A DNA stretch of 64,000 bases from contig CAMAWD010000001.1 of NCBI GenBank assembly GCA_945861785.1, forward strand, positions 124,001 through 188,000. Direction: 5' to 3'. The position numbers and the translations under genes are program-made. This stretch comes from Rhodoferax sp. OV413 (GTDB lineage Bacteria > Pseudomonadota > Gammaproteobacteria > Burkholderiales > Burkholderiaceae_C). Below, piece after piece: positions 7,238-24,871 of this stretch. Under the pieces are notes generated by a model, which saw only the letters and a list, made by a program, of their open reading frames with translations, searched no databases and was not told where the DNA came from. The stretch's first letter is position 1. Each line of letters starts with the position of its first letter.

Positions 7238-8560
7238 TCAGCGTGCCGGCCCCGAGCCCCTGTCCATGAAGGGCTCTCCTGCCAGCGGCCCGGTGTAGTC
7301 CTGGGCCTTCAGGCCCATCGCCTCTTCGAAGCGATGCCGGACCCAGTCTGGCTGTCCGGCTTGCAGGATGTAGCCCAGCACAGTTTGGCGGTGCACCGGG
7401 TTGGCCAGGATCTCTGCGCGCGTCAGCCCATGCATCGCGATGTTGCGTCGCACGCTGGGCAGCTCGATGCGCACGTTGTGCCGCGGGTCGCGCAGGATGC
7501 CCTTTGGGTCCAGGCCTTGTGCCACAGCGGCCAGGTCGGCCAGAAAGCGCCGGCGCAGCATGACGATGCCCCCGTCGCTCGCACCCAGAAACTCGCGCGT
7601 GCGATCGGCGATACGGCCCTGGCCCGCCCACGCGACGAAGTCCTGGTTCATCACGTGGGAGGTGATCCAGCGTCCGTGTTCGTCATGTGTCGGCCCGATC
7701 CAGGTGGGGATGCTGCCCTGGACATAAGGCTCCTGCTCGCGCGGCACATGCACATAGTGCCAGGTCACGCTCAATGTGTTCTCGTCGTCTACAGGCACGC
7801 GCCACTCAAAATGGTTGCCGAGGAAGAATCCGTTCGGCCACAGGCAGACGCGCCCGGTCGTCCAGGCAGTGTCGTTTTCGTCGCTTCCTTCGCGCATGCG
7901 TTTGTACACCAGACCATGCTCGAACTCTTCGAATTTGACCCGCAGGTGGCGGGCGGAACGCCCGGCTTGCGGGCCATCACGCAGGCGTGCGCCCCAGTTG
8001 TCGTGCATCCACTCGAAATGCACCGGGTCGATCGAGTTTTCCTGGCATTGCAGCCAGTTGCAGGGCAATTGCGACAGCACCACCTGCACGAAGCCGTTCT
8101 TCCATGAGAACTGCTCCCAGTCGGGTACCAGGGGCGCGGGCAGCGGACCCAGGTAGGCCCACACCATGCCCCCCTTGGTCTGCACCGGATAGGCCTTCAC
8201 GGCGGCTCCGCCACGCAGGCCATGGCCCGGTCGCGCCAGGTCTTCATAAGGCTGTGCGGTGCAGGCGCCGGTGGCCGAGAACTCCCATCCGTGGTAGGAG
8301 CAGCGCAGGCCCTGCTGCTCGACCATGCCATGCAGCAGATCTGCGCGGCGGTGCGAACAATGCCGGTCGATCAGGCCGAAGTGACCCTGAAGGTCGCGGA
8401 ACAGGACCAGATCCTCACCCATGAGGCGCACGGGCTTGATGGCGACCTGGTCGAATTCGGACACGCCGGCGATGGGCATCCAGTATCTGCGCAGCAGGTC
8501 GCCCATGGCGGTGCCAGTTCCGACCCGGGTGAGGGTCTCGTTCTTGTGCTGGTCGAGCAT
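7238..8560 (-). CDS. Rieske aromatic ring-hydroxylating oxygenase alpha subunit (second)
   Basis: CSHRRADLLHGMVEQQGLRCSYHGWEFS; ENSIDPVHFEWMH. Confidence 0.92.
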   Translation of the reverse strand: MLDQHKNETLTRVGTGTAMGDLLRRYWMPIAGVSEFDQVAIKPVRLMGEDLVLFRDLQGHFGLIDRHCSHRRADLLHGMVEQQGLRCSYHGWEFSATGACTAQPYEDLARPGHGLRGGAAVKAYPVQTKGGMVWAYLGPLPAPLVPDWEQFSWKNGFVQVVLSQLPCNWLQCQENSIDPVHFEWMHDNWGARLRDGPQAGRSARHLRVKFEEFEHGLVYKRMREGSDENDTAWTTGRVCLWPNGFFLGNHFEWRVPVDDENTLSVTWHYVHVPREQEPYVQGSIPTWIGPTHDEHGRWITSHVMNQDFVAWAGQGRIADRTREFLGASDGGIVMLRRRFLADLAAVAQGLDPKGILRDPRHNVRIELPSVRRNIAMHGLTRAEILANPVHRQTVLGYILQAGQPDWVRHRFEEAMGLKAQDYTGPLAGEPFMDRGSGPAR

Positions 8561-8642
8561 GCGGTCTCCTTCGCGACCTGACTGTCAGAGCGGCGCACCC
8601 AGGCCGCTGCTTGTATTCGTCATCCAGGAATGTCGCGCGTTC

Positions 8643-10328
8643 TCAGGGGTTCAGGAAGTCCTCTTCCCAGTACTCGTGCACGCCGCGCAGGTTCGACGCT
8701 CGGCGCGCAGCTTCCTCGTTGCGCAACTCCACCCTGCGGATCTTGCCCGAGATGGTCTTGGGCAGTTCGCTGAACTGGATGCGACGGATCCGCTTGAAGG
8801 GTGCGACGCGTTCCCTGAGGAACACGAACAGCGCACGGGCGGCATCTGCCGAGGGTGCCACGCCTGGCTTCAGGACGACGAAGCCCTTGGGAACGGCCAG
8901 GCGTTGGGGGTCCGGGCTGGGTACCACCGCGGCTTCCGCGACCGAGGGGTGTTCGATCAGCACGCTTTCAAGCTCGAACGGACTCACGCGGTAGTCTGAA
9001 CTCTTGAAGACGTCATCGGTGCGACCGACGAAGGTGAAGCAGCCGTTCGCATCTCTCATCGCCACGTCGGATGTGCGGTAATGGGTGCCGCCCAGTGCGT
9101 CTGCGGTTCGCTGCTCGTCACCGGCATACCCATGCATGATCGACACCGGCGGCGGGTCGAGCGCCACACTGACTTCGCCTTCGGTTCCCTCCTGGCCTTC
9201 GGTATCGAGCAGCACCACCCGGTAGCCGGGCATCGGACGCCCCATGGAGCCGGCCTTGACCTCCTGCCCCGGTGAGTTGCCGATGATGCAGGTGGTCTCG
9301 GTCTGCCCGTAACCATCGCGGATGGTCAGGCCCCAGGCGCTCCGGACCTTGTCGATGATCTCGGCATTCAGTGGCTCCCCTGCGGAGAGTACTTCGCGCA
9401 GCCGGACCGGGTAGCTGGCCAGGTCAAGCAGCGCAAAGGCGCGCCACACTGTGGGCGGGGCGCACAGGCTGGTGACCCCGCAACGCACGATGGAGTCGAG
9501 CGTGCGCTTGGCGTCAAACCGCGCCTGCTCAAAGATGAACACACCCGCACCGGCATTCCACGGCGCGAAAAAGCAACTCCATGCATGTTTGGCCCACCCG
9601 GGCGAGCTGATGTTCCAGTGCACATCGTCCGGACGCAGGCCGAGCCAGTACATGGTCGACAGGTGCCCGACCGGGTAACTCGCCTGGGTGTGCAGCACCA
9701 TCTTGGCCTTGGCGGTGGTGCCGGAGGTGAAATACAGCAACAGCGGGTCAGTCGCGGCGGTCGCGCCCTCGGGGGTGAAGTCGGCGCTGCAGGACTGCGA
9801 TTCGTTGAAGTCCGACCAGCCCTGCAGGGCCCCTCCAATGGCGATGCGTGCCAGTCCCGGCCGGAGTCCGTCGCACAGGGGGGCCCGGGCATGGTCTGTG
9901 ATCAGCACACACATGCCGCCACGTTCGATCCGGTCTTCCAGGTCGACTCGGGTCAGCAGGGTCGCCGCGGGGCTGATCACCGCGCCCAGCTTGATGATGG
10001 CCAGCGTCAGTTCCCACAACGGTACGACATTGGGCAGCATCACGAGGATGCGGTCACCACGCCTGACACCCAGATTGCGCAAGTAGTTGGCTACACGGTT
10101 CGAGCGCGTGCTGATCTCGGCGAAGGTGAGTGCTGACTCGACCCCCTCGTCGTCGACGATGCGCAGCGCCATGCGGTTGTTGCCTCTGGCCAGTCCATCG
10201 AAATAGTCCAAGGCCCAGTTGAAATCGGCCGAGCGGGGCCATTGGAATTCGCGGTAAGCCAGTTCATAGTTGTCGCGGTGGCGGATGAGGAGGTCACGCG
10301 CCGCAAGGAATTCGTTCGCAGTGGACAT
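8643..10328 (-). CDS. AMP-binding acyl-CoA synthetase, benzoate-CoA ligase-like
   Basis: LLYFTSGTTAKAKMVLHTQ; RDGYGQTET; C-terminal KTISGKIRRVELR. Confidence 0.9.
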   Translation of the reverse strand: MSTANEFLAARDLLIRHRDNYELAYREFQWPRSADFNWALDYFDGLARGNNRMALRIVDDEGVESALTFAEISTRSNRVANYLRNLGVRRGDRILVMLPNVVPLWELTLAIIKLGAVISPAATLLTRVDLEDRIERGGMCVLITDHARAPLCDGLRPGLARIAIGGALQGWSDFNESQSCSADFTPEGATAATDPLLLYFTSGTTAKAKMVLHTQASYPVGHLSTMYWLGLRPDDVHWNISSPGWAKHAWSCFFAPWNAGAGVFIFEQARFDAKRTLDSIVRCGVTSLCAPPTVWRAFALLDLASYPVRLREVLSAGEPLNAEIIDKVRSAWGLTIRDGYGQTETTCIIGNSPGQEVKAGSMGRPMPGYRVVLLDTEGQEGTEGEVSVALDPPPVSIMHGYAGDEQRTADALGGTHYRTSDVAMRDANGCFTFVGRTDDVFKSSDYRVSPFELESVLIEHPSVAEAAVVPSPDPQRLAVPKGFVVLKPGVAPSADAARALFVFLRERVAPFKRIRRIQFSELPKTISGKIRRVELRNEEAARRASNLRGVHEYWEEDFLNP

Positions 10329-10373: not shown

Positions 10374-10397
10374 TTAGAACCCTAATCAGGGGAAACC
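10374..10397. promoter_or_regulatory. Candidate operator TTAGAACCCTAA followed by GGGGAAACC
   Basis: TTAG-N4-CTAA in a divergent intergenic region; recurs at 15293, 23194 and 24055. Confidence 0.45.
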
Positions 10398-11666
10398 ATG
10401 ATGGAACCCAATCCCCACGAACCGGCGATCACCGCTAACATCGACCGGCATCTGCCCACGGATATTGCCATGACAAACACCCCACTGCGCATCGGTATCG
10501 CCGGCCTCGGACGCGCGTTCTCGGTCATGCTGCCGACCTTCTTGCACGACCCGCGTGTCCAACTGGTGGCCGCAGCGGATCCCATCGCAACGGCGAGGGC
10601 GAGGTTCGTGTCCGACTTCGGCGCACCGGCGTATGACTCGGTCGAGGCCGTGTGTGCAGATCCCCGGGTGCAGGTGGTCTATGTCGCAACGCCGCACCAG
10701 TTCCACAGCCAGCACGTGTGCCTGGCCGCCGCCCATGGAAAACACGTGCTGGTCGAAAAGCCCATGGCCATCACCCTCGATGAGTGCACGCGGATGGTGG
10801 AGGCTTGCCGAGCGGCTGGCGTGTACCTGATCGTCGGTCACAGCCACAGCTTCAACACTCCGATCCAGCGGCTGCGCACGCTGCTCGACAGCGGACGATT
10901 CGGCCGGGTCCGCATGATCAACGCCATCGACTACACCGACTTCCTCTACCGCCCGCGCCGGCCGGAAGAACTCGACACGCGTTCCGGTGGCGGTGTCGTG
11001 TTCAGCCAGGGCGCACATCAAATCGATATCGTGCGCCTGCTCGGCGGTGGCCTGGTGCGCAGCGTGCGCGCATTCACAGGCAGCTGGGACAGTTCACGCC
11101 CTACCGAAGGCGCCTACAGTGCCCTGCTGGGCTTCGAGGACGGAACGTTCTGCAGTGCCACCTACAGTGGGTACGGGCACTACGACAGCGACGCGCTGCT
11201 GGACGACATCGGGGAGTCGGGCGTAGCCAAGAGCGCGGCCGATTACGGCGCCGCACGCCGGCGGCTGGCCACGGCACAATCCGCCGACAAGGAGGCTGCC
11301 CTGAAGGCGGCACGCAACTACGGCGGCAGCCTGTATGCGCCATCTGCCGCCCTGCCGGTGGACCGGTTTCACCAGCATTTCGGTCATATGGTCATCAGCT
11401 GCGAACACGCGGACCTGCGTCCGACGTCCAAGGGGATCGAGATATTTGCCGACGATTCGCGGCATTTCGAGGCCCTGCCGCCGCCGGTTGTGCCGCGCCT
11501 GGAAGTGATCGACGAACTGCATGACGCAGTCATCCGAGACAGGCCACCGCTGCACAACGGGGAGTGGGCCCGCGCCACCACGGAAGTCTGCCTGGCGATT
11601 CTGGAGTCGGCGCGAATACAGGCTGACTGTGCGCTGACGCTGCAGGTCAGGCCGGTGGATCGCTGA
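10398..11666 (+). CDS. Gfo/Idh/MocA-family NAD(P)-dependent dehydrogenase
   Basis: LRIGIAGLGRAFSVMLPTFLHDPRVQLVAAADP...GKHVLVEKPMAI; an alternative start is 10470. Confidence 0.88.
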   Translation: MMEPNPHEPAITANIDRHLPTDIAMTNTPLRIGIAGLGRAFSVMLPTFLHDPRVQLVAAADPIATARARFVSDFGAPAYDSVEAVCADPRVQVVYVATPHQFHSQHVCLAAAHGKHVLVEKPMAITLDECTRMVEACRAAGVYLIVGHSHSFNTPIQRLRTLLDSGRFGRVRMINAIDYTDFLYRPRRPEELDTRSGGGVVFSQGAHQIDIVRLLGGGLVRSVRAFTGSWDSSRPTEGAYSALLGFEDGTFCSATYSGYGHYDSDALLDDIGESGVAKSAADYGAARRRLATAQSADKEAALKAARNYGGSLYAPSAALPVDRFHQHFGHMVISCEHADLRPTSKGIEIFADDSRHFEALPPPVVPRLEVIDELHDAVIRDRPPLHNGEWARATTEVCLAILESARIQADCALTLQVRPVDR

Positions 11667-11719
11667 GCGCAGGGGGCCGCAGCGCAGGCTTGCGGGCGTG
11701 CCGCGCTGTGCCGGGGAGC

Positions 11720-12709
11720 CTACTCGGCCTTGATTCCAGTGGCCCTGATCACGCGCACCCAGCGCTCGTTGTCCTGTCGGCGCAGTTGCTCGGTTTCGGC
11801 CACCGTACCCCCCACAGGGTCGAACGTGTTGGTCGAGATCCAATTGGCGATTTCGGGGGTCTGCAAGGCCTCGCTGACAGCGGCGGACAGCCTGCTGGCC
11901 ACTGCCGGCGGTGTTGCCGGCGGGGCGAACATCGCGAACCACACCATGGAGACGAAACCGGGCACGGCCTCGCCGATCGTTGGCACATCGGGCAACAACG
12001 GATTGCGTTTTTCGCTGCCGATACCCAGGGCACGCAATTTTCCGGACCGGATATGCGGCAGTGCCGAACCAAGGTTCAGGAACATCAACTCAACCTGCCC
12101 GCCCAGCAGATCCGCCATGGCCGGAGCGTTTCCCTTGTAAGCCACGTGCACGATCTTGGTGTTGGTCATGCCCTTGAACATTTCGCCGGTAAGGTGCGCC
12201 ACGCTCGCAATACCCTGCGATGCATAGTTGAGCTTGTCGGGGTTGGCCCGGGCATAGGCAATCAACTCGGGCAGCGACTGGGCCGCCACCTTGGGGTGAG
12301 CGACCAGCACACTGTATCCTTTGGCTGGCGCCGACAAGGCAATGAGAGCATCCGGTTCATAGCCCAATTGCGGATACAGCGTCTTCTGGACAAATGGACC
12401 CGGCATGAACAGCAGCGTCGAGCCATCCGGCGCCGAGCGAAATACCGCCTCGGCTCCCAGGTTGCCGCCTGCTCCCGCCCGATTTTCGACGACGAAAGGC
12501 TGGCTCCAGCGCGCCGACAGGTTCCCTGCAAGCAGTCGCGCCAGGGCATCCGTGGCTGAGCCGGCGGCAAAGGGCACGACAATACGCACCGGCTTGGACG
12601 GGTAGTCCTGTGCCTGTGCGGGCAGCCCATGCAGCAGGCCAGTCACGCCGGCGATCATGAGTATGCGTATGCAAAATTTTTTCATCATCGGGCCTTCAAT
12701 GGTGGGCAA
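11720..12709 (-). CDS. Bug-type tripartite tricarboxylate transporter substrate-binding protein
   Basis: YPSKPVRIVVPFAAGSATDALAR...PFVVENRAGAGGNLGAEAV. Confidence 0.93.
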   Translation of the reverse strand: MPTIEGPMMKKFCIRILMIAGVTGLLHGLPAQAQDYPSKPVRIVVPFAAGSATDALARLLAGNLSARWSQPFVVENRAGAGGNLGAEAVFRSAPDGSTLLFMPGPFVQKTLYPQLGYEPDALIALSAPAKGYSVLVAHPKVAAQSLPELIAYARANPDKLNYASQGIASVAHLTGEMFKGMTNTKIVHVAYKGNAPAMADLLGGQVELMFLNLGSALPHIRSGKLRALGIGSEKRNPLLPDVPTIGEAVPGFVSMVWFAMFAPPATPPAVASRLSAAVSEALQTPEIANWISTNTFDPVGGTVAETEQLRRQDNERWVRVIRATGIKAE

Positions 12710-12727
12710 GGTTCGTTCGCAGCTGGT

Positions 12728-13468
12728 TCAGAAATTGCGAAGCAGGCGCCCGTACCCGGTGATGGCATCGTTCACGGCACAGCGGCGCAAAGCACTCCAG
12801 CAGATGGACTGGTGCGCTGTCACCACGTTGATTCCGAATTCCTTTTCGATCGGTTCTATCGACTCGGCCACAGCCCAATGCGGGCACGGCATCCACATCG
12901 TGTCGGCCGACGGCGCCTCAAGCATCAGCGCGCGCGCCAAGCCCATGGCAGTGCTGCGCGGCACCAGTCCGAGCCGGTCCGCCGGGAACCCAGCACCCTT
13001 CACTGCGGCTGGTTCGAATTTGTAATCGTCCAGGCAACGCGTGAAAAGGGCATCCTGGCTGGCATCGAAGGGATGACCGATGACAACCTTGCGGGCTCCC
13101 AATATCCGCAATGCTTCCATCTGTGCCGAAGTGCTGGTGGTCACCGGGACGCCGATGTCGCTCTGTACGTCGCGAATCAGCCCATCGACATCACTGCCGC
13201 GCGACCGGTTGATCGGCAACCCGCCGAGGACGAGGAGATCGACCGACGCCCGGGCAATCTCCCGCGCCGCGCGCAGGCTGATCTGGTAGCTCTGGTCGAT
13301 CTCGTCCTTGTTCATGTCGACGATCGCCAATGTCGATATGACCAGACAGACGCCTTCGGGCACCATTTTGTAGAACTCGAACGGGAACACCTCGGTAGCG
13401 GCCGGAGGCGAGGTGTAGCCGATCCGGGCACGGTAGCCATAGATGTCGCGTGGGGAATGTACTTGCAT
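12728..13468 (-). CDS. Maleate isomerase / arylmalonate decarboxylase family protein
   Basis: RARIGYTSPPAATEVFPFEF..VPEGVCL; WMPCPHW; C-terminal ITGYGRLL. Confidence 0.75.
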   Translation of the reverse strand: MQVHSPRDIYGYRARIGYTSPPAATEVFPFEFYKMVPEGVCLVISTLAIVDMNKDEIDQSYQISLRAAREIARASVDLLVLGGLPINRSRGSDVDGLIRDVQSDIGVPVTTSTSAQMEALRILGARKVVIGHPFDASQDALFTRCLDDYKFEPAAVKGAGFPADRLGLVPRSTAMGLARALMLEAPSADTMWMPCPHWAVAESIEPIEKEFGINVVTAHQSICWSALRRCAVNDAITGYGRLLRNF

Positions 13469-13489
13469 GGCGGTGGAAGCCCGTGCTGC

Positions 13490-14215
13490 TCAGCGCTGCA
13501 GTGTCGAGAAGATGCGGCCATACCCCGTGATCGGCTCCCGGATGTCGAGCATCTCGAATACGTGCCACAACATGGCCTGGAAACTCGAAATTACCGGAAC
13601 CCCGAGGTCGGCCTCCAGCGGTGCGATGTTGTCGAACGTCGGCATCTGGGCGCAGGGCATGTAGACCGCATCGACATCCGGGGCCATCCGGTATGCCTGC
13701 TTGGCAAGCTGGTACGACGCGCGGGAGGCCATGGACCCTATCTCGATGACCGGCAGCCCCAATCCCTTGATGGCGACAACGGCAATGCCCGAGTCTTCGA
13801 GGAACTTCTTCAGCAGCAGATTCTGGTCCTCCGCAAACGGAGACGCAATCGCGATCCTTTTCGCACCCAGTCGCCGCAGCGCCTCAACAGCCCCGGTCTG
13901 GCTCGTTGTGCATGGGATCGTGGTCACTTCATGCATTTGGCGGATGATCTCCTGGTCAAAGCCGTAGCCCCCATAGGTCACCGTCGGCGACCCTCCCAGC
14001 GCGATGACATCGGATTTGGCGCGTGCCAGTTCGGCAGTGGCATCCTTGAGCTTGAGCAGTGCTGCGCCGATGTTGTCGCGGTCCAGGCGCTGGATCGACA
14101 GGCAGGTCAGGGCCAGTGCAACGCCGGGAGGCGCCACCTTTGGAAACTCCTGGACCATGGTCTCGGCAGTCATCGATGGGCAGATGAAGCCTATGCGGGC
14201 GCGCCATGCGTACAT
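13490..14215 (-). CDS. Maleate isomerase / arylmalonate decarboxylase family protein, tandem paralogue
   Basis: RARIGFICPSMTAETMVQEFPKVAPPGVAL; YMPCAQMP; ITGYGRIF. Confidence 0.75.
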   Translation of the reverse strand: MYAWRARIGFICPSMTAETMVQEFPKVAPPGVALALTCLSIQRLDRDNIGAALLKLKDATAELARAKSDVIALGGSPTVTYGGYGFDQEIIRQMHEVTTIPCTTSQTGAVEALRRLGAKRIAIASPFAEDQNLLLKKFLEDSGIAVVAIKGLGLPVIEIGSMASRASYQLAKQAYRMAPDVDAVYMPCAQMPTFDNIAPLEADLGVPVISSFQAMLWHVFEMLDIREPITGYGRIFSTLQR

Positions 14216-14267
14216 GAAATCGATCTCCGGGGTCGTAGGTGGTGGATGTCGAAGTGCGCCGCAAGCG

Positions 14268-15245
14268 TCAGTCGGCCTGGATACCGGTTGCCTTGACTAC
14301 GGACGCCCACTTTGTTGTCTCTTCGCGGATAAAGCTGGCGAACGCCAGGGGGTTCATGGTCATGACGCTCATTTGCGCTGCGCCCAGGCGCTTCTGGGTG
14401 TCCGGCTGCGCAAGCGCCTCGGTGATCTTCGCGTTGAGCAGGTCGATGATCGGCCCGGGGGTTCCGGCTGGCGCAAAAATGCCATGCCAGGACGTCGCCT
14501 CGAATCCCGGAAACGTCTCGGAGACCGCCGGCAGGTCGGGCAGGTTGGGCAGTCGCCTGGCCGCGGTGGTCGCCAGCCCCACCAGCTGACCAGCGGCTAC
14601 CTGTTGCACGACCTGACCGGCATCAAACATGAAATTGATATGGCTCCCGAGCAAAGCAACATTGGCCGGGCCGCTTCCGCCGAATGGAATGGGCCGGACA
14701 TCAATCCCGGCGCTGGCTCGGAAGAGCTCCGCAAACAGGTGCTGGGTGCTGCCACTGCCTGCCGTGCCGTAGGTGACCTGCCCGGGCTTTGCCTTGGCCA
14801 TCGCGATCAGTTCGGCAACCGATCGCACGCCGAGCGACGGAGGAACGACGAGGAACGTCGGCACACTGGCTATCGGCGCGACCGGGGTCAGCTCCTTTGC
14901 AGGCTGGTAGGGCAGCTTGGCGCCATACAGGGCCGGATGGATCGCGATCGTGCCCACGTACCCATGGACCAGTGTGTAGCCGTCGGGTGCAGATCTGGCT
15001 GCCTGCGCAGTACCAATATTGCCTGCCGCGCCAGGCCGGTTGACGACCACAAAAGGCTGCCCCAGCATTTGGGTGAGTTTCTCGGCGATGACACGGGTGG
15101 AGAGGTCGGTCGACCCGCCCGGTGGATACCCGACAATCACGGTCACCGGCTTGCTTGGGTAGGCCTGCGCAAATACCGCACCACCCAGAAGGACGCCGGC
15201 GACAGCCAGAAGCAACTTTCCGACCCGAAACTTCATTGGGAACAT
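14268..15245 (-). CDS. Bug-type substrate-binding protein
   Basis: YPSKPVTVIVGYPPGGSTDLSTRVIAEKL...PFVVVNRPGAAGNIGT. Confidence 0.93.
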   Translation of the reverse strand: MFPMKFRVGKLLLAVAGVLLGGAVFAQAYPSKPVTVIVGYPPGGSTDLSTRVIAEKLTQMLGQPFVVVNRPGAAGNIGTAQAARSAPDGYTLVHGYVGTIAIHPALYGAKLPYQPAKELTPVAPIASVPTFLVVPPSLGVRSVAELIAMAKAKPGQVTYGTAGSGSTQHLFAELFRASAGIDVRPIPFGGSGPANVALLGSHINFMFDAGQVVQQVAAGQLVGLATTAARRLPNLPDLPAVSETFPGFEATSWHGIFAPAGTPGPIIDLLNAKITEALAQPDTQKRLGAAQMSVMTMNPLAFASFIREETTKWASVVKATGIQAD

Positions 15246-15292
15246 CTCCTTTCAGATGCGTTGAACAGCACCACGAGTGTGCATCTCGATGG

Positions 15293-15316
15293 TTAGGGAT
15301 CTAAATGGGGGAAACC
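15293..15316. promoter_or_regulatory. Candidate operator TTAGGGATCTAA followed by GGGGAAACC
   Basis: Same architecture and 3-nt spacing as at 10374. Confidence 0.45.
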
Positions 15317-15407
15317 CTGAGGGCGGCCCACTAAATTCCGGACCGGGGAATGTTTGCAGAGGGCCCGAAAAACGAACCCGAAAACCGCAGCTTGCGGGCG
15401 GGTACGC

Positions 15408-16382
15408 CTACTCCGCCGCAGGAATTTTGGCCACTTTCACCGCACGTTCGTAGCGCTTCAGGCTGGCACGGATGTTGGTCGCATACTGCAACGGAGTCGT
15501 GTACTTGATGTCGATGCCCCTGGCGCGGAACGAGTCCACGATCTCGGGGGATTCAGAGGCCAGCTTGATGGCGGCAGCCAATTTCTCCAGGACATTTGCG
15601 GGCAGGCCGGCAGGCGCCAGGATGCCGGTTTCGGAAGCGAAGTCGTAGTCCTTGATCAATTCACCGATGGATGGCACATTGGGTAAACCGGCAGCGCGGT
15701 AACTTGTGCTCACACCCAAGGCAAACAACTTGCCGGCGGCAATATGGGGCCCGGCTGTCGCAGCCGACGTGGCGAGCACCGGAACCTCGCCGGCCAGGAT
15801 GGCACCCACGGACTGCCCACTGCCCTTGTAAGGGATGTGCAGCAACTCCACACCCGAGTCCTCGAAGAATGTCGCCATCGAGATGTGGTGGATGCTGCCC
15901 ACACCCGAGGTGCCGAAGTCGATCTTGCCCGGACGGGCCTTGGCCTCGCGAATGAGGTCCTGCAGGCTGCGGATGCTGGTATTGGCACTGGCCACCAGAA
16001 GCACGCCCCCGGTCGCCACCATGCTGATGGGCGTGAAGTCGCGAAGCACGTCGTAGCCCAGGTTCTTGTAGATGTAAGGGGCCACGAACAACTGACCTGT
16101 CTCGCCCGCGATCAGGGAGTACCCGTCAGGCGGCATCTTGACGAACTGCGCGGTGGCTGTGGTTCCGGCAGCGCCCGGGCGGTTCTCGACCACGAAGGGC
16201 TGGCCCAGCAACTCTCCCAGCTTCTTGGCATAGGCGCGGGCCACCAGATCGGGAACGCCACCGGCCGGATGGCCGACGTAGATCTTCACGGGTTTGTTGG
16301 GGTAGTCCTGGGCAAAGGCACTGGTGGCGGCCGCCAGCAATCCCGCAAACGCCAGGATCAGGGTCTTGAGCCATATCGCCAT
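15408..16382 (-). CDS. Bug-type substrate-binding protein
   Basis: YPNKPVKIYVGHPAGGVPDLVARAYAKKLGELLGQPFVVENRPGAAG. Confidence 0.93.
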   Translation of the reverse strand: MAIWLKTLILAFAGLLAAATSAFAQDYPNKPVKIYVGHPAGGVPDLVARAYAKKLGELLGQPFVVENRPGAAGTTATAQFVKMPPDGYSLIAGETGQLFVAPYIYKNLGYDVLRDFTPISMVATGGVLLVASANTSIRSLQDLIREAKARPGKIDFGTSGVGSIHHISMATFFEDSGVELLHIPYKGSGQSVGAILAGEVPVLATSAATAGPHIAAGKLFALGVSTSYRAAGLPNVPSIGELIKDYDFASETGILAPAGLPANVLEKLAAAIKLASESPEIVDSFRARGIDIKYTTPLQYATNIRASLKRYERAVKVAKIPAAE

Positions 16383-16482
16383 CGTTGTCTCCTTCAGTTG
16401 GTGCAAAAACAGAACTCGCAATAACACGCCGGACCGCCATTCCCGCACGGTTCACGGCCGTCGCGGCAGAACGTAGGAGAAC

Positions 16483-17457
16483 TCAGTCGGCCAGAGGAAT
16501 CTTGGCGATTCTGACGGCGCGCTCGTATTTCTTCAGGTTGACCCGGATGTTCTCAGCGTATTCGGCAGGCGTGGTGTAGCGGACGATGAGGCCGGACTTG
16601 CGAAGGCCCTCCGTCACCTCCGCCATCTCCGAGACCTTCTTCACAGCCGCCGACAACTTGGACAGTATCGGCGCTGGCAGGCCGGGTGGCGCCAGAAAGC
16701 CCACTTCGGATGCGAAGTCGTAGCCCTTCACGAACTCGCCGATGGACGGCACATTCGGATACCCTGGCAGACGGAAACTGGTCGACACCGCCAGCGGGAT
16801 GAGTTTGCCTGCCGCAACATGCACTCCAGCGCCCGCAGCAGACGTTGCGAGCACCGGCACCTCACCCGCCAACGCACTCACGACCGACTGACCACTGCCT
16901 TTGAAGGGAATGTGCTGCATGTCGATACCGGAGTCCTCCATGAACGTGGACATCACGATGTGGTGGATGGTGCCGATGCCGGAACTGCCAAAGTCGATCT
17001 TGCCTGGTCGCGCCGTGGCCTCCCGGATCAGGTCCTGCAGGGTCTTGATCGACGACCCCGGCGTGGAAACGACCATCACCGCCGTAGTCGCCACCATGCT
17101 GATGGGCGTGAAATCGCGAACCGTATCGTACTGCAGGTTCTTGTAGACATAGGGCGCCACAAACAGCTGGCTGGTTTCGCCCACCAGCAGCGTGTAGCCG
17201 TCCGCTGGCATCTTGGACACCTGGGCAGTGGCCGTGGTGGCGCCTGCGCCGGGCCGGTTCTCCACCACCACCGGTTGCCCCAGGACCTCGCCGAGTTTCT
17301 GCGCAAATCCGCGGGCGACGACGTCGGGGCCGCCGCCAGCCACAAATCCGACGATCATCTTGATCGGCCTCGCGGGATAGTCCTGCGCGAACGCGCCACT
17401 GGTTGCCGCCAGCACCGCCGCCAATGCCATGAACCGTCTGCCCAGCGCCTTGTTCAT
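16483..17457 (-). CDS. Bug-type substrate-binding protein, tandem paralogue of 15408-16382
   Basis: YPARPIKMIVGFVAGGGPDVVARGFAQKLGEVLGQPVVVENRPGAGATT. Confidence 0.93.
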   Translation of the reverse strand: MNKALGRRFMALAAVLAATSGAFAQDYPARPIKMIVGFVAGGGPDVVARGFAQKLGEVLGQPVVVENRPGAGATTATAQVSKMPADGYTLLVGETSQLFVAPYVYKNLQYDTVRDFTPISMVATTAVMVVSTPGSSIKTLQDLIREATARPGKIDFGSSGIGTIHHIVMSTFMEDSGIDMQHIPFKGSGQSVVSALAGEVPVLATSAAGAGVHVAAGKLIPLAVSTSFRLPGYPNVPSIGEFVKGYDFASEVGFLAPPGLPAPILSKLSAAVKKVSEMAEVTEGLRKSGLIVRYTTPAEYAENIRVNLKKYERAVRIAKIPLAD

Positions 17458-17476
17458 CTGTTTCCCTTGTCAGCAA

Positions 17477-18469
17477 TCATTTCCACACGATGAAACCCGC
17501 ACCGACACCGGTGCCCGCTGGCGTCCGGTACAAGGGCAGGTATTCGGACCACGCCACCGGCATACCTTCCATGGCGCCGGCGGTCAAAACCCAGTTGAGG
17601 ATCTCGGACGACCCTGAGTTGAGCGCACCACGCGGCAGCGAACGCAGCGTCGCGGCGTCGCCAGCCACCAGTGCGCCCATGACGCTGCGGTCGAGCGCCT
17701 CATCCACGACAAAATGGCTCAGCCCACCGGATGCCACGATGGCAACCCGCCGGTCTGACCGGTCGGACTCGAGCACCCTGCGCAAGGCCCGTCCGATGTC
17801 GTGGCAGCGCGCCGCGCTCGGCACGTTGGGCGGGAAGTAGGTGTTGAGCAACAACGGCACCATCGGGATGGGACGCTGGCGGAACAGCCGCTTCGAAATG
17901 AAGCCAAATGCGTGCCCGAGTCCGGCCTTGCCGCCATCACCACAGCTCGCCACAGCGGTCACATCGACGCCCTGGTCGATCAGGCCTTCGATGAGTTGGA
18001 GGGCGAACGCCTGCTGCCCGGGGAGCGTGTGACGCGTGTCCATCAGGTAGCCCCTGCCCATGGTCTTGACCCAATCGGGTGACCCTTGACGTCCAAACGC
18101 ATCGCTCGTGATCAGCTGGTCGTTGTGGTAGATCGCGAACGCAGGCTGGTTGGCCGGACCAAAAAGTTCCCCCTGGTCATCCCCAACGATGAGGACGATG
18201 TCTGGCTGGGCGGCCTCCAGCGTATCGGCCAGGCGGTTCAGGGCGGCTTCACACAACTGCGCCTTGCGTTCGAGTTCGGACGGCTGCGACACCTCGGTGT
18301 AGCGGGGGCCGGTTTCCGCCAGCAGCTCTGCATAGGAGACCCAGCGGCCGTCCGACAGGTTCAACCGGGGGTTGTTGCGGTCGGCCTCTGCGCGGTGCTG
18401 CCAGTCTGAACTCTCCAACGTGAACAGCGGGGTATGGGAAGTGCCGATTCCGAGAACGATATTGGCCAT
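17477..18469 (-). CDS. Class III (LigB-type) extradiol ring-cleavage dioxygenase
   Basis: MANIVLGIGTSHTPLFTLE...ADTLEAAQPDIVLIVGDDQ...VAIVASGGLSHFVVDE. Confidence 0.85.
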   Translation of the reverse strand: MANIVLGIGTSHTPLFTLESSDWQHRAEADRNNPRLNLSDGRWVSYAELLAETGPRYTEVSQPSELERKAQLCEAALNRLADTLEAAQPDIVLIVGDDQGELFGPANQPAFAIYHNDQLITSDAFGRQGSPDWVKTMGRGYLMDTRHTLPGQQAFALQLIEGLIDQGVDVTAVASCGDGGKAGLGHAFGFISKRLFRQRPIPMVPLLLNTYFPPNVPSAARCHDIGRALRRVLESDRSDRRVAIVASGGLSHFVVDEALDRSVMGALVAGDAATLRSLPRGALNSGSSEILNWVLTAGAMEGMPVAWSEYLPLYRTPAGTGVGAGFIVWK

Positions 18470-18479
18470 GGCGTAGAAC

Positions 18480-19112
18480 CTAGTTGGTTGCAGGTAGCTT
18501 GTAGACGTCGATCGTTCGTGCGCCCTGCTTGAGCCGCGCGACGATCTCGAGTTCATCGCGTTCGCGCTGCAAGCCTGCAGCGACGACGCGCACGGCATCG
18601 GCGCGCGCCAAAACCACCACGCCGTCTGCGTCGGCGACCAACAGGTCACCGGTATGCACGAGGATGTCGCCGATCAGCGCCGACCGGCCCACCGACCCGG
18701 CGCCATCGGCCCGCTTCGTGGTGCCACGGATGCAGACACCGGCGGAGAACACCGGCCAGTCAAGCGTGCGAAGTTCCTCGGAATCCCGCACCCCCCCTTC
18801 GGTGACGAACCCGGCCAGTCCGCACTCGCGGGCCGCATTGGCCATGATGCCACCCCAATAACCGGCCTCGGCGTCGGCGCCACATTCGTGGAGCAGCACG
18901 GCTCCCTTGGGTGCCGCGTAGATGGCACGGTGCAGCCACAGGTTGTCGCGCGGGGGGCCGACCACCGTGAAGACCGGGGCGGCAATACGCCAATCGTTGC
19001 GCAACGGCTTGATGGCCGAAGGCAAGGCCCCCATCTTGCCACCGGCTTCGTGCAACGTGGCACTGCCCAGCTGGCGCGCCTGGTGCAGCAGATCGTGGGG
19101 GAACCCGTCCAT
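18480..19112 (-). CDS. RraA / LigK-type (4-carboxy-4-hydroxy-2-oxoadipate aldolase) family protein
   Basis: AVLLHECGADAEAGYWGGIMANAARECGLAGFVTEGGVRDSEEL. Confidence 0.85.
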   Translation of the reverse strand: MDGFPHDLLHQARQLGSATLHEAGGKMGALPSAIKPLRNDWRIAAPVFTVVGPPRDNLWLHRAIYAAPKGAVLLHECGADAEAGYWGGIMANAARECGLAGFVTEGGVRDSEELRTLDWPVFSAGVCIRGTTKRADGAGSVGRSALIGDILVHTGDLLVADADGVVVLARADAVRVVAAGLQRERDELEIVARLKQGARTIDVYKLPATN

Positions 19113-19768
19113 CAGGATGTTCCCTTGGTCTGAAGGGCGTGGTAGCCCTGATTCTTGCGCGCCTGATCGAGCCGCTCACCCCGTTCCACTGCTGCACGAA
19201 TGTGGTCTTCTGCCTGCTCGATGCGGCTCGCCACCTCGGCCACTTGCTCGATGCGCTCCTTGGGCACCACCACCACCCCGTCCCAATCGCCGAGTACATA
19301 GTCACCCGGGTCGACACGCACACCACCGATCGAAATGCTGCATTGCACCGCGTCCACTGCAACACGGTCCTTGCCGGTGCGCATGTGGCTGGCGCGCGCG
19401 AAGATCGGGTATTTGAGTTCGATGGCACGGGGCGCGTCACGGCACACGCCATCGATCACGGTGCCGCCCAAGCCCTTGCGGCTGGCCACGATGGTGAGGA
19501 TGTCACCCCACACGGTGGCATCCATGCGCTGCTGGTTGTCGAGCGCCACGACCGTTCCTGGCCCGAGATCGTCGATGTAGTCGCCGACCGTGCCGCCGCG
19601 CGTCCCGCACGGCACGTAACGGATGGTGAAAGCGGGCCCGGCTGCCCGAAAACCCGGATCCAGCGGCTTGATGCCCAGACATTGGCCGGCGATACCCAGC
19701 TTGTCCAGCGCGTCCGAGACGGTGGTTGTGTCCATGCGGCACAGCGCCGCCATTGCTTGGGTAGTCAT
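19112..19768 (-). CDS. RraA / LigK-type family protein (second)
   Basis: VSDALDKLGIAGQCLGIKPL...ATVWGDILTIVASRKGLGGTVIDGVCRD. Confidence 0.87.
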   Translation of the reverse strand: MTTQAMAALCRMDTTTVSDALDKLGIAGQCLGIKPLDPGFRAAGPAFTIRYVPCGTRGGTVGDYIDDLGPGTVVALDNQQRMDATVWGDILTIVASRKGLGGTVIDGVCRDAPRAIELKYPIFARASHMRTGKDRVAVDAVQCSISIGGVRVDPGDYVLGDWDGVVVVPKERIEQVAEVASRIEQAEDHIRAAVERGERLDQARKNQGYHALQTKGTS

Positions 19769-20449
19769 TCAGCTGCCTTTCAACATGCTCTCATACTGGT
19801 GGCTCATCACCACGCTCACCGGTTCGCCGTTGCGCACCCGGGCAATCATCTGCTGCTCGCGTGCGGCCAGGCCTTCGGCGGTGGCCAGGACCTCCTCCAG
19901 GCGGGCGGCCGGCACGAACACCACGCCGCTGCTGTCCGCCAGCACCCAGTCACCGGGGCGCACGCGAATGCCGCGCACCACGATCGGCTCCTGGCAGGCG
20001 ATTTCCATCACCCGCCCGCGCGCCGTCGCCGGCACGGCGCCGACGCCGAAGACCGGAAAACCGAACTCAATCGCCTCGTCGATGTCGCGGCACATGCCGT
20101 CGACGATCACACCCTCGATGCCGCGGCTCTTGGCGGCGAAGGACAAGATGCCGCCCCAGCCCGCAGCCTGCTGGTGCGCATGGTGCTCGACCACGATCAC
20201 ATCGCCCGGACCACCCTGGTCGACGGCCGCCGTGCACAGATGGCGTGGCGCGACCCCGCCCTCGGCCGGGCCCAGGGTGACCGTGATCACACGGCCGGCC
20301 ACGCGCGTCTGGCCGGCCAGGCGGCCGATGCCGAAGGCCACGCCGCGGATGCCCAGGCGGTCCAGTGCGTCGGACAACACGCAGGTGTCGACCTTCACCA
20401 GCCGCGCTTGCACAGCGCGGGCGGCTTCGGCCGTCAGCACTGCGCTCAT
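19769..20449 (-). CDS. RraA / LigK-type family protein (third)
   Basis: MSAVLTAEAARAVQARLVKVDTCVLSDALDRLGIRG...AGWGGILSFAAKSRGIEGVIVDGMCRD; ATGA overlap with upstream gene. Confidence 0.87.
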   Translation of the reverse strand: MSAVLTAEAARAVQARLVKVDTCVLSDALDRLGIRGVAFGIGRLAGQTRVAGRVITVTLGPAEGGVAPRHLCTAAVDQGGPGDVIVVEHHAHQQAAGWGGILSFAAKSRGIEGVIVDGMCRDIDEAIEFGFPVFGVGAVPATARGRVMEIACQEPIVVRGIRVRPGDWVLADSSGVVFVPAARLEEVLATAEGLAAREQQMIARVRNGEPVSVVMSHQYESMLKGS

Positions 20450-21441
20450 TTGTAGTTCTTGAAGTGGGTGTACAGGCGGGCGCAGTTGCACTCGAAAATG
20501 TTCTCGCGGTCCTTGTCGCTGAGCATCTCCATGGCCTCGATCACCGGTTTGAGGTCGTCGAAGCTGCGGCCCGAGCGCGGGTCGATCTGGCTGCCCGTGC
20601 CCGGGTTCTCGGTGGCAAAAAGCACCCGCTCGGTGCCAACCACCTTGAACAGCAGCTCCAGCGCGTCCTTGTCGTAGGTGGTGGTGTCGAAGTGCAGGTG
20701 CTTGAGCTGCTCGTCGAAGAAGGCCTCTTTCTTGTGCACCGACCAGGCCCTGAAGCGCCCCATGTGGTAGGGGATGGCGCCGCCGCCGTGCGGGATGATG
20801 AGCTTGAGCGTGGGGAAGCGCTTGAACACCTCCGAGGACAGCAGCGAGGTGATGGCGATGCTCTCCTCGTTGATGAACTTCAGCGTGTACGACAGGCGTG
20901 GCTCGCAGCTGCCGGCTGAATGCACCAGGGCCGGTATGTCGAGCTCGCACAGTTTCTCGTACAGCGGGTACCAGAACGGGTCGCCCATGCCGGGAGGGGG
21001 CGCAGCGTCGCCCTCGGTCGGGTCGGGGTTGAGCAGGCAGCCGATGAAGCCCTGCTCCTTGACGCGGAATTCGAGCTCTTCGAAACAGTTGACCGGCGAG
21101 GTATCGCGGTACTGGGGCAGGCCGGCCACGGCGCGAAAGCGGGTCGGGAACATTTCGACCGTGCGGTAGACCAGGTCGTTCATGTAACGCGTCCACAGCG
21201 CAGTCACCTTGGACGGCTTGACCGAGTGCATCTGCATGTAGGGCCGCGGCGACAGGAACTGGATGTCCGTGCCGACCCTGTCCATGATGTCGATGATGGT
21301 CTGGCCGGCCTTGCGCACCGATTCTTCGGGCAGCACCGGCGGGGAGGTGGGGTTGGCGCGGCTCGCCACCAGTTCGGCCATGTATTTGTAGGCCTCGGGC
21401 GGTACGACCACGTGGGCGTGGGAGTCGATGATCAATGGCAT
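20446..21441 (-). CDS. Amidohydrolase-2 family protein, 4-oxalomesaconate hydratase (LigJ)-like
   Basis: MPLIIDSHAHVVVPPEAYKYM...GFIGCLLNPDPTEG...FWYPLYEKLCELDIPALVHSAGSC...IIPHGGGAIPYH. Confidence 0.8.
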   Translation of the reverse strand: MPLIIDSHAHVVVPPEAYKYMAELVASRANPTSPPVLPEESVRKAGQTIIDIMDRVGTDIQFLSPRPYMQMHSVKPSKVTALWTRYMNDLVYRTVEMFPTRFRAVAGLPQYRDTSPVNCFEELEFRVKEQGFIGCLLNPDPTEGDAAPPPGMGDPFWYPLYEKLCELDIPALVHSAGSCEPRLSYTLKFINEESIAITSLLSSEVFKRFPTLKLIIPHGGGAIPYHMGRFRAWSVHKKEAFFDEQLKHLHFDTTTYDKDALELLFKVVGTERVLFATENPGTGSQIDPRSGRSFDDLKPVIEAMEMLSDKDRENIFECNCARLYTHFKNYK

Positions 21442-21471
21442 GGGAGGGGTCTTTCGTCAGGGTTAATGGAG

Positions 21472-21864
21472 TCAGGTAATTACGGCCACGGCTTCAAGCT
21501 GCACCAGCATGCCGCCGCGCAGGTCGTACATCAGGGTGTGGCGCGCCGGGCGGTCGTGGGGGTCGGGGAAGCGCTGCAGCCACTGTTCGTTGACGGCTGC
21601 TCGCGCGGAGTCGTCCTTGATGAAGACGGTCATGCGCACCAGGTGGTCCAGCGTGGCGCCGCCGGCCCGCAGCAGGCTCTCCATGTTCTGGAATGCGAAT
21701 TTGACCTGCTCGGCAACGTCCGCGGGCAAGGTGTCGGTCGCCGGGTCCTTGCCCATGATACCGGAGGAATAGATGACATTGCCGACACGCGCACCCATCG
21801 GGATGGGCGCGTTGCCGTGCGTGATGCCGGGGACTTCGAGGCTGCGGCCTTTGCGTTCACTCAT
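21472..21864 (-). CDS. RidA (YjgF/YER057c/UK114) family protein
   Basis: NVIYSSGIMGKDPATDTLPADVAEQVKFAFQNMESLLRAGGATLDHLVRMTVFIKD. Confidence 0.85.
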   Translation of the reverse strand: MSERKGRSLEVPGITHGNAPIPMGARVGNVIYSSGIMGKDPATDTLPADVAEQVKFAFQNMESLLRAGGATLDHLVRMTVFIKDDSARAAVNEQWLQRFPDPHDRPARHTLMYDLRGGMLVQLEAVAVIT

Positions 21865-21896
21865 TCAGGACTCCTGGTTGACTGTGGTGCCGGCGC

Positions 21897-23138
21897 CTAG
21901 GGCTCGAAGACGAGGCCGAGTGCGTCAGCGATGGGGGAGAAGCGCACATGGGTGCGCGACACGAAGGTGCGAAAGCTGCCGCGAAAGTGCTTCTTGCCCT
22001 TCTCGTTGGGCAAATCGATGCGCTGGTTGCGCGCCTCATCGCGGATCACCCCCATCGGGTCTTCCCCGCGCTCCACCTTCTTCATCTCGCGGCGCAGCAT
22101 GCGCCGGTACATCGCAATCCCCTGGTCCGAGGCCCCCAGATTTTCGCGTGTGCGGTTCGCAAGCGGCCCCTGCGTCAGCCACGCCATGACGTCCTGGCCG
22201 TCAATGTGGTCCACGCGGAACTCGCCATTGGCCAGCCGGAACGGCACCTCGTGCAGGTGCACCTCCTGCAGCAGCCGCGGCGGCACCGAGGCCCCCGGCG
22301 GCGGCGTGTACGCGTGGTACCAGAAGTGCATGGTGTTCTCGTCGTCCATCGGCACCCGCATCTGGAACACATAGGCGCGTTTGTCCTCGTCGCCGTTGCC
22401 TACCGCGAGCATGCTGGGGAACACAATCGGGTGGCCCACCTTCCAGTCGTCACCCTCTTCGCTCTGCCCCTCGAGCAGCCGGTGCTTGGTGATGCCCCAC
22501 TCGAACTCCCGAAAGTCGATCTTCTTGTGCGTGGCGCTGATGTGCGTCTTCACCCCCTCCTGCTCCAGCAGGAACTCCGTGCTGCGCCCGTGCAGCCACT
22601 CCGCATGCACCGGGTCCAGCGAAGTCTCCACGATCTGCAGCCAGTTGCACGGAATGTGCGCATGGCCCAGCAACCGGATCGCGCCCGGCACCACAAAACC
22701 ATCAAAACGCGGCAGCAGCGGCACCGGCTTGGGGCCCAGGTAGGCAAACACCAGCCCGCCAAGCTCCTGCACCGGGTAGCCCGCAATCCCCACCTTCTGG
22801 CGGAACTCCAGGTTGTCCTTCTCAAACGGCTGGCTCAGGCACTGGCCCTGGGCGTTGAACTCCCAGCCGTGGTAGGGGCAGCGGATACCGCCCTCGGTGG
22901 GCAAACCGTAGACAAACGAGGCCCCCCGGTGCGGGCACTGGTGCTCGACCAGGCCCAGGCGACCCTGGCGGTCCTTGAACAGCACCAGATCCTCGCCCAG
23001 CAGGCGCACCGCCTTGGTCCACTTGTCGCGCAGTTCCACGGCCGCGGCCACCGGGTGCCAGTAACGGCGCATCAATTCGCCCCCCGGCGTGCCTTTGCCC
23101 ACCTGGGTGAGCAGCCGGTTTTGCTCTGCCGTTTCCAT
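21897..23138 (-). CDS. Rieske aromatic ring-hydroxylating oxygenase alpha subunit (third)
   Basis: CPHRGASFVYGLPTEGGIRCPYHGWEFN; ETSLDPVHAEWLH; RBS GAAGGAG before ATG. Confidence 0.92.
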   Translation of the reverse strand: METAEQNRLLTQVGKGTPGGELMRRYWHPVAAAVELRDKWTKAVRLLGEDLVLFKDRQGRLGLVEHQCPHRGASFVYGLPTEGGIRCPYHGWEFNAQGQCLSQPFEKDNLEFRQKVGIAGYPVQELGGLVFAYLGPKPVPLLPRFDGFVVPGAIRLLGHAHIPCNWLQIVETSLDPVHAEWLHGRSTEFLLEQEGVKTHISATHKKIDFREFEWGITKHRLLEGQSEEGDDWKVGHPIVFPSMLAVGNGDEDKRAYVFQMRVPMDDENTMHFWYHAYTPPPGASVPPRLLQEVHLHEVPFRLANGEFRVDHIDGQDVMAWLTQGPLANRTRENLGASDQGIAMYRRMLRREMKKVERGEDPMGVIRDEARNQRIDLPNEKGKKHFRGSFRTFVSRTHVRFSPIADALGLVFEP

Positions 23139-23140
23139 CG

Positions 23141-23253
23141 ATGCTCCTTCGTTTTGCCTGAACCTCGCCACCGGCCCGCAGAGCAGCACCCGATTAGCGA
23201 TCTAAGTCTAGCAAATTCCTGACGGCGATCAAGTGCGACCGATCCTCTTTGCG
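23141..23253 (-). repeat. 113-bp direct repeat copy A: leader/promoter region of the third Rieske gene
   Basis: Near-identical, indel-free match to 24002-24114; contains TTGATC-N16-TAGACT, TTAGCGATCTAA and GAAGGAG. Confidence 0.9.
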
Positions 23254-23296
23254 CTAGGGAAAACCCTTGGGGTGCGGGACGGCGCGGCAGCGCCGC

Positions 23297-23836
23297 TCAG
23301 CCGACCTTGCGCAGCGGCGGCAAGGTGCGGTTCATCCGGAACTCGTCGACTTCGAGGTTCTTCATCATCGTGATGGCGGTCTTGCGGAAGATCGCGACGT
23401 CGCGCGGAGCAATGCCGCCAATGGCCACCGAGTTGAGCTCCTCGGCCAGCGGGATCAGCTTGTCTTTCAGGGCGCGACCTTCGGGTGTCAGCAGGATGCA
23501 CACGTTGCGCAGGTTGCTGGGGAGCTTCTGGCGCGAGATGTAACCCAGCGACTCCATGGCCCGCAGCGCGCTGTAGGTGGTGGGCTCGGTCACGCCGGCG
23601 TAGTCGCTCAGCTCGCGCTGGGTGATGCCGTCGTGCTCCCACAGGACCCGCAGGAAGGCCCAGTACCCGTAAGAGACCGCATGGTCCATCAGGCGGATCT
23701 GCATGCCCCGGGTCATGCCACGCAACAAATCCTTGACAACGTACGCCAGGCGGTCGTTGGGTACCGCCTCGCGCCACCGGCGCCGCCCTGGCGGCACGGA
23801 AGTATCGATTCGAGAGTCCTTGATGCGAGTAGCCAT
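23297..23836 (-). CDS. MarR-family transcriptional regulator
   Basis: LRVLWEHDGITQRELSDYAGVTEPTTYSALRAMESLGYISRQK..RNVCILLTPEGRALKDKL. Confidence 0.9.
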   Translation of the reverse strand: MATRIKDSRIDTSVPPGRRRWREAVPNDRLAYVVKDLLRGMTRGMQIRLMDHAVSYGYWAFLRVLWEHDGITQRELSDYAGVTEPTTYSALRAMESLGYISRQKLPSNLRNVCILLTPEGRALKDKLIPLAEELNSVAIGGIAPRDVAIFRKTAITMMKNLEVDEFRMNRTLPPLRKVG

Positions 23837-24001
23837 AGGTCTTTATTTTCTGGCGGGAGCCCGGAGCCGGTGCTGGTACGGCGCTCCCAGGTTGGCAAGT
23901 GTACTGGCCGGCACCCGGGTGGCTGCGGAAATGGCTTTCAGAGGTTCGGCAGCAGTCGCGTGGACTTCGCACTTGAGACAAAAATCATGGTCTCATCCTG
24001 G

Positions 24002-24114
24002 ATGCTCCTTCGTTTTGCCTGAACCTCGCCACTGGCCCGCATCGCAGTATCCTATTAGCGATCTAAGTCTAGCAAATTCCTGACGGCGATCAAGTGCGAC
24101 CGATCCTCTTTGCG
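24002..24114 (-). repeat. 113-bp direct repeat copy B, upstream of marR
   Basis: See copy A at 23141-23253. Confidence 0.9.
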
Positions 24115-24199
24115 TCAGTGAAAACCCCTATGGCAGAGCCGAGGCGGCGATCTCACGCCCCTCTGTGCGCCTGCCACGAAACTTTGGGCCGCTGATGGA

Positions 24200-24663: not shown

Positions 24664-24705
24664 TTGATGCTTGATGCTTGATGCTTGATGCTTGATGCTT
24701 GATGC
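24664..24705. repeat. Heptanucleotide tandem repeat (TTGATGC)x6
   Basis: Six exact consecutive copies. Confidence 0.97.
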
Positions 24706-24871
24706 TGCAGGCGGCACCGTGGCCGGGCAAGATCGCCCAAGGCCGGCTACACCGCTGCGCAACGGGCTCGGGACACTGATGAAGGTCTGCATTGGTCTAT
24801 TCTGACCTATCTTGTGCGTCGCTTTGGCGCGCGATCCGGTTCCATGCAGGACGGATTGACGGCAGACGTGC

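Follow-up and report, generated by a model that had tools for sequence, protein, structure and literature searches.

The window analyzed here, a 64,000-nucleotide (nt) stretch of the Rhodoferax sp. OV413 genome (contig CAMAWD010000001.1, positions 124,001 to 188,000), encodes an island of aromatic catabolism genes in which the spaced palindrome TTAG-N4-CTAA occurs four times. From sequence comparisons, we consider it likely that these sites are the operator of a subfamily of MarR-type regulators that controls phthalate-dioxygenase-type operons, with repression by a MarR dimer as the predicted mode of action. The palindrome is linked by computation to this MarR subfamily; the sites, their rarity, their promoter positions, and a duplication containing two of them are established in the same way. 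We infer that the MarR encoded in the window, alone or with a paralogue encoded on contig C9 of the same genome, binds the window sites. Repression, induction, and a phthalate-like ligand are proposed in turn; repression, with release by an aromatic acid, we infer from membership in the MarR family and from the DdvR-ligXa system (PMC6874591).

Palindromic sites in the window

A first-pass annotation of the window had listed four TTAG-N4-CTAA sites, and all four are present where it placed them, in the gene contexts it described:

10374..10385, unstranded: TTAGAACCCTAA, weakest operator candidate, between the acyl-CoA ligase and Gfo/Idh genes (45 nt to the ligase start, 12 nt to the Gfo/Idh ATG)
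15293..15304, unstranded: TTAGGGATCTAA, moderate operator candidate upstream of the Bug gene 14268-15236 (56 nt to its start)
23194..23205, unstranded: TTAGCGATCTAA, predicted operator of the Rieske operon (55 nt to the Rieske start)
24055..24066, unstranded: TTAGCGATCTAA, predicted operator in a duplicated promoter upstream of marR

Dinucleotide shuffles lead to an expectation of 0.02 matches in the window, which bears out the suggestion in the annotation that chance occurrence should be rare. A scan of the window that allowed one mismatch found no TTAG-N4-CTAA site beyond the four. Two of the sites had been assigned to one duplication, correctly: 23194 and 24055 both fall in a 127-nt repeat, which leaves three independent sites.

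Co-occurrence of the palindrome with a MarR subfamily

MarR relatives in the same genus show about 48-56% identity to the window MarR. Whole-genome counts of the palindrome are one each in G001, G002, and G003, four in G005, and two in G038, a genome of the same order; each of these five has one copy flanked by a phthalate-dioxygenase-like gene on one side and, on the other, by a divergent operon that ends in marR. Contig C9 of the source genome has a similar arrangement.

We screened 79 loci from Burkholderiales and Alphaproteobacteria, encoding MarRs at 48-58% identity, for 2304 spaced palindromes (256 tetramers, each with spacers of 0 to 8). TTAG-N4-CTAA ranked first of the 2304, with 91 occurrences found against 1.55 expected, in 62 of the 79 loci; the reversed control pattern had eight occurrences. 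Although 85% of the sequence searched is coding, 90 of the 91 sites are intergenic. Phthalate dioxygenase or reductase genes are present at 63 of the loci, of which 60 have the exact site, versus two of the 16 other loci. Among the three phthalate loci that lack it, L153 and L193 contain one-mismatch sites with high scores, and the contig of L139 ends just upstream of the operon. The pairing of palindrome and MarR spans two proteobacterial classes, and no TTAG-N4-CTAA was found in 64 kb around distant MarRs. An order-wide sample contained the oxygenase in nine of 399 genomes. All seven newly examined oxygenase genomes encode this MarR; the exact site occurs at the oxygenase promoter in five, and in G173, a sixth, the site at the oxygenase locus has one mismatch.

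The oxygenase of the C9-type phthalate cluster matches 7fjl (818 bits), which belongs to the phthalate dioxygenase group; in a relative's cluster, the reductase matches 2pia (400 bits), a phthalate dioxygenase reductase. Judged by this homology, the ancestral MarR-linked cluster was most likely one for o-phthalate. As we picture it, the subfamily would mainly govern phthalate-dioxygenase-type catabolic operons in Alpha- and Betaproteobacteria, the window representing a diverged regulon. Locus L105, which encodes a more distant MarR of the subfamily in a genome without phthalate dioxygenase (G029), has two high-scoring one-mismatch sites (9416, 11234) upstream of neighboring genes; judging from this locus, it may be the MarR, and not the oxygenase, that the motif accompanies.

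Operator consensus and promoter geometry

The proposed operator consensus is approximately WWWC-TTAGA-NN-TCTAA-GWWW, with dyad symmetry over about 22 bp, and TTAG-N4-CTAA would be its core; symmetry is observed to extend about 11 bases from the operator center. Of the Rieske and phthalate dioxygenase promoters that were examined, most have a -10 hexamer beginning five bases ahead of the operator, so that its last T is also the first T of the operator, and a TTGACA-like -35 box 16-18 bases upstream. The average over 105 non-redundant gene-facing sites has a -10-like signal at that offset, with others beyond the operator, and in the canonical clusters a single palindrome lies across the -10 boxes of two divergent promoters. 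The overlap of operator and -10 box, together with the dyad symmetry, fits a dimeric repressor that blocks polymerase. Two promoters are predicted at window sites:

23205..23232, minus strand: predicted promoter of the Rieske operon, -35 TTGATC (23227-23232), 16-nt spacer, -10 TAGACT (23205-23210), by consensus match
24066..24093, minus strand: identical predicted promoter in the copy upstream of marR, by consensus match

A matrix trained on genomes other than the source genome gave scores of 18.9 for site 24055, 15.7 for 23194, 11.3 for 15293, and 7.7 for 10374, while simulated windows contained zero sites at a score of at least 9 and about 0.7 at a score of at least 7. Sites 23194 and 24055 rank as strong operator candidates, 15293 as a moderate one, and 10374 as a weak one, to be treated as a candidate only.

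The annotation had also reported GGGGAAACC exactly 3 nt downstream of both 10374 and 15293. The shared sequence is real, at 10389 and 15308, and, directly or as its reverse complement, it is found 3-5 nt from three of the sites, the third being in L003 (an inverted copy near C1:63379). As a second regulon element, however, we rejected GGGGAAACC: it is absent from most other operators, the flanks of the two window sites show no wider homology (44 of 132 positions identical; random 35.6, standard deviation 5.5), and at 10374 it occupies the position expected for the Shine-Dalgarno sequence of the Gfo gene.

The duplicated promoter-operator block and marR

The gene marR lies between the two copies of the duplication:

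23140..23266, unstranded: copy 1 of the duplicated promoter-operator region, with a 61-nt identical block at 23193-23253
24001..24127, unstranded: copy 2, 93% identical to copy 1 over 127 nt
23297..23836, minus strand: marR, 179 aa, diverged member of the operator-linked MarR subfamily (Pfam MarR 1.1e-10; relatives 48-58% identical; long branch)

All nine differences between the copies fall outside the 61-nt block, which holds the -35 box, the -10 box, and the operator (P = 0.02 for a block of such length). The duplicated block has two copies in the genome and no more, and its interpretation as a mobile or repeated element was rejected for that reason. The product of marR contains the MarR winged-helix domain PF01047 (41.7 bits, cutoff 24.6). 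By its sequence context, marR seems to carry its target's promoter-operator in front, and looks like a regulator gene that captured a target promoter. A short tandem run of TTGATGC units is found farther upstream of marR, at window 24664-24712.

In the mechanism we propose, two promoters would be covered by a MarR dimer when no inducer is present, that of the Rieske operon (23194) and that of marR (24055), each over its -10 box and start-site region, so that RNA polymerase would be blocked. The dimer would probably also sit at the Bug operon (15293), and possibly at the acyl-CoA ligase/Gfo pair (10374), until an aromatic acid or its metabolite releases it. The gene marR would have acquired its own operator through duplication of the Rieske promoter. 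The autoregulation suggested in the first-pass annotation is upheld insofar as site 24055 sits in a complete copy of the Rieske promoter upstream of marR; it follows if the window MarR binds there, and remains conditional on that binding. We put forward tentatively, as a broader scheme that may or may not hold, that two paralogous MarR repressors read the same operator code at about a dozen scattered aromatic-acid operons, and that the window repressor gained autoregulation by copying its target's promoter-operator.

Distribution across the source genome

The source genome (7.13 Mb in 202 contigs) contains 14 TTAG-N4-CTAA sites, versus 33 matches to the reversed control pattern. Seven of the 14 are on C1, the window's own 241-kb contig (binomial p ~1e-7). 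Thirteen are intergenic, against six of 15 control sites. A genome scan yielding many promoter-unrelated matches had been named in advance as evidence against an operator; 13 of the 14 matches are at promoters, and the scan did not refute the operator. Genes adjoining the sites encode five LigXa-type Rieske oxygenases, four TctC/Bug receptors, a DctP receptor, a thiolase, an acyl-CoA ligase, and MarR. A site accompanies five of the 11 LigXa-family genes in the genome (p ~3e-11, with the gene total of 6700 an estimate). TctC/Bug receptors show a very large family expansion, with 151 matches in this genome, a number that weakens Bug genes as evidence for a transport regulon.

The matrix scan for weaker sites covered the fetched stretches and contig C1. 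On C1 it found nine sites scoring at least 9, all intergenic, while simulations gave zero. Three of the nine are one-mismatch sites and, as judged by sequence and neighbors, probable further members of the regulon: C1:46097 (L015:18097), adjoining TauD and aldehyde dehydrogenase genes; C1:14677 (L242:14677), adjoining Bug and hydantoinase genes; and C1:36473 (L015:8473), adjoining class II aldolase and TauD genes. Two of the three score above 21.

Genes of the aromatic island

The predicted and candidate targets within the window are as follows:

21897..23138, minus strand: Rieske oxygenase of the LigXa/phthalate dioxygenase group, predicted target (Pfam; matches to 7fhr and 7fjl)
15408..21864, minus strand: rest of the predicted Rieske operon, encoding a Rid-family protein, an amidohydrolase, three RraA/LigK-type aldolases, a LigB-type dioxygenase, and two Bug receptors (operon predicted from spacing and strand)
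11720..15236, minus strand: predicted Bug operon, encoding Bug, two Amdase-family proteins, and Bug, the last (11720-12688) labeled by size and context only
7238..10328, minus strand: acyl-CoA ligase (8643-10328) and second Rieske gene (7238-8560), candidate targets of 10374 (Pfam)
10398..11666, plus strand: Gfo/Idh/MocA oxidoreductase, neighbor of site 10374, 58-67% identical to its Gfo/Idh counterpart in MarR-linked phthalate-type clusters

Homologs of the Rieske gene 21897-23138 on contig C22 and in G005 also have a site upstream. In the window, a diverged Rieske gene is found 12 kb from a Gfo homolog, with no reductase among the genes annotated; the canonical set of phthalate dioxygenase, reductase, and Gfo-type dehydrogenase is located on contig C9.

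Alternative explanations

Several observations weigh against assigning the window sites to this MarR subfamily, or to the window MarR in particular. The score of site 10374 is close to the null, no clear promoter hexamers were seen at 10374 or 15293, where those at 15293 are weak, and site 24055 lies about 219 nt from the marR ATG (23836). The screened loci are non-independent, with many Caballeronia and close kin among them, and p-values drawn from them are not literal. No phthalate genes and no palindrome are found near the nine members of one MarR clade from Caballeronia and Burkholderia (L117, L120, L122, L124, L126, L129, L130, L136, and L146). Finally, the tree leaves the long branch of the window MarR unplaced, and the source genome encodes a second MarR, on contig C9, with 48% identity to it.

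This second MarR is the basis for the alternative that survives best, although we regard it as unlikely: the window sites would be operators read by the C9 phthalate-cluster MarR as one genome-wide regulon, the window MarR having drifted to another site or ligand. The C9 MarR adjoins a canonical phthalate cluster that bears the same operator, it clusters in the tree with phthalate-linked MarRs of the genus, its operator scores highest among exact sites in the genome (24.3), and the sites are scattered over the genome. The recognition helix of the window MarR has changed at several residues (T for M, Y for F, R for K), but its P-T-T core is preserved, and the window marR is located between two of the sites, with one in its own upstream region. 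The claim in the first-pass annotation that the sites are the operator of the local MarR is supported at the level of the MarR subfamily, by the 79 loci, the palindrome screen, and the promoter geometry; the acting copy may be the window MarR, the C9 paralogue, or both, and site 10374 may or may not function.

It is quite improbable that the MarR is an activator or anti-silencer in the manner of SlyA, instead of a simple repressor. SlyA, whose consensus has the same core, activates by antagonizing H-NS (PMC5797941), and the promoters at 10374 and 15293 look weak; against this, Rieske and phthalate dioxygenase promoters have the operator over their -10 box and start region, a blocking position, and DdvR is a repressor of ligXa (PMC6874591). 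The notion that the sites are chance palindromes, one of them duplicated, and mean nothing for regulation can appeal to the small number of independent window sites and to the near-chance score of 10374, but is contradicted for the set as a whole by the shuffles, by the intergenic placement of sites in the genome, and by the first rank among palindromes at loci from other genomes, so that it is hardly credible except for 10374.

Comparison with known systems

The window MarR is 48-58% identical to MarRs encoded beside phthalate dioxygenase genes in o-phthalate (oph/pht-type) clusters, from which the window differs in having a diverged oxygenase and LigB/LigK-type ring-cleavage genes. A 2026 review describes the isophthalate repressor IphR as characterized in detail and names no such regulator for o-phthalate (PMC13040137). 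A literature search of titles, abstracts, and counts, covering few subscription journals, found no paper that gives the four commonest operator sequences in a catabolic MarR role, and none on a MarR regulator of phthalate dioxygenase genes. A specific operator is proposed here for a widespread repressor subfamily of phthalate-type degradation that is uncharacterized in the literature searched. If the proposal is true, its regulons become readable from genomes, and its components may serve as parts for phthalate biosensors; it also provides a case of a repressor gene seemingly gaining its target's own switch through duplication.

The consensus of SlyA from E. coli and Salmonella, TTAGCAAGCTAA (PMC5797941), is an exact instance of TTAG-N4-CTAA, whereas the predicted target genes of the window MarR are catabolic. 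Identification of the window MarR as SlyA was rejected: it gives no BLAST alignment with E. coli SlyA, the SlyA model PRK03573 is not among its matches, and its relative in G001 scores 20 bits to that model against a cutoff of 120. In auxin degradation by Variovorax, the MarR protein MarR_73/iadR represses an aromatic catabolic locus through a 24-bp promoter-region site and is released by the substrate (PMC9613470). The structure of this protein, 7kym, ranks with the top PDB matches of the window MarR, but the two are distant in sequence (E ~2e-8). DdvR of Sphingobium sp. SYK-6, likened here by its described regulation, is a MarR-type protein that represses a LigXa Rieske oxygenase gene, repression being lifted once the aromatic substrate enters the cell (PMC6874591). 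The gene set and the genus are different; the Rieske genes of the window match the LigXa_C family.

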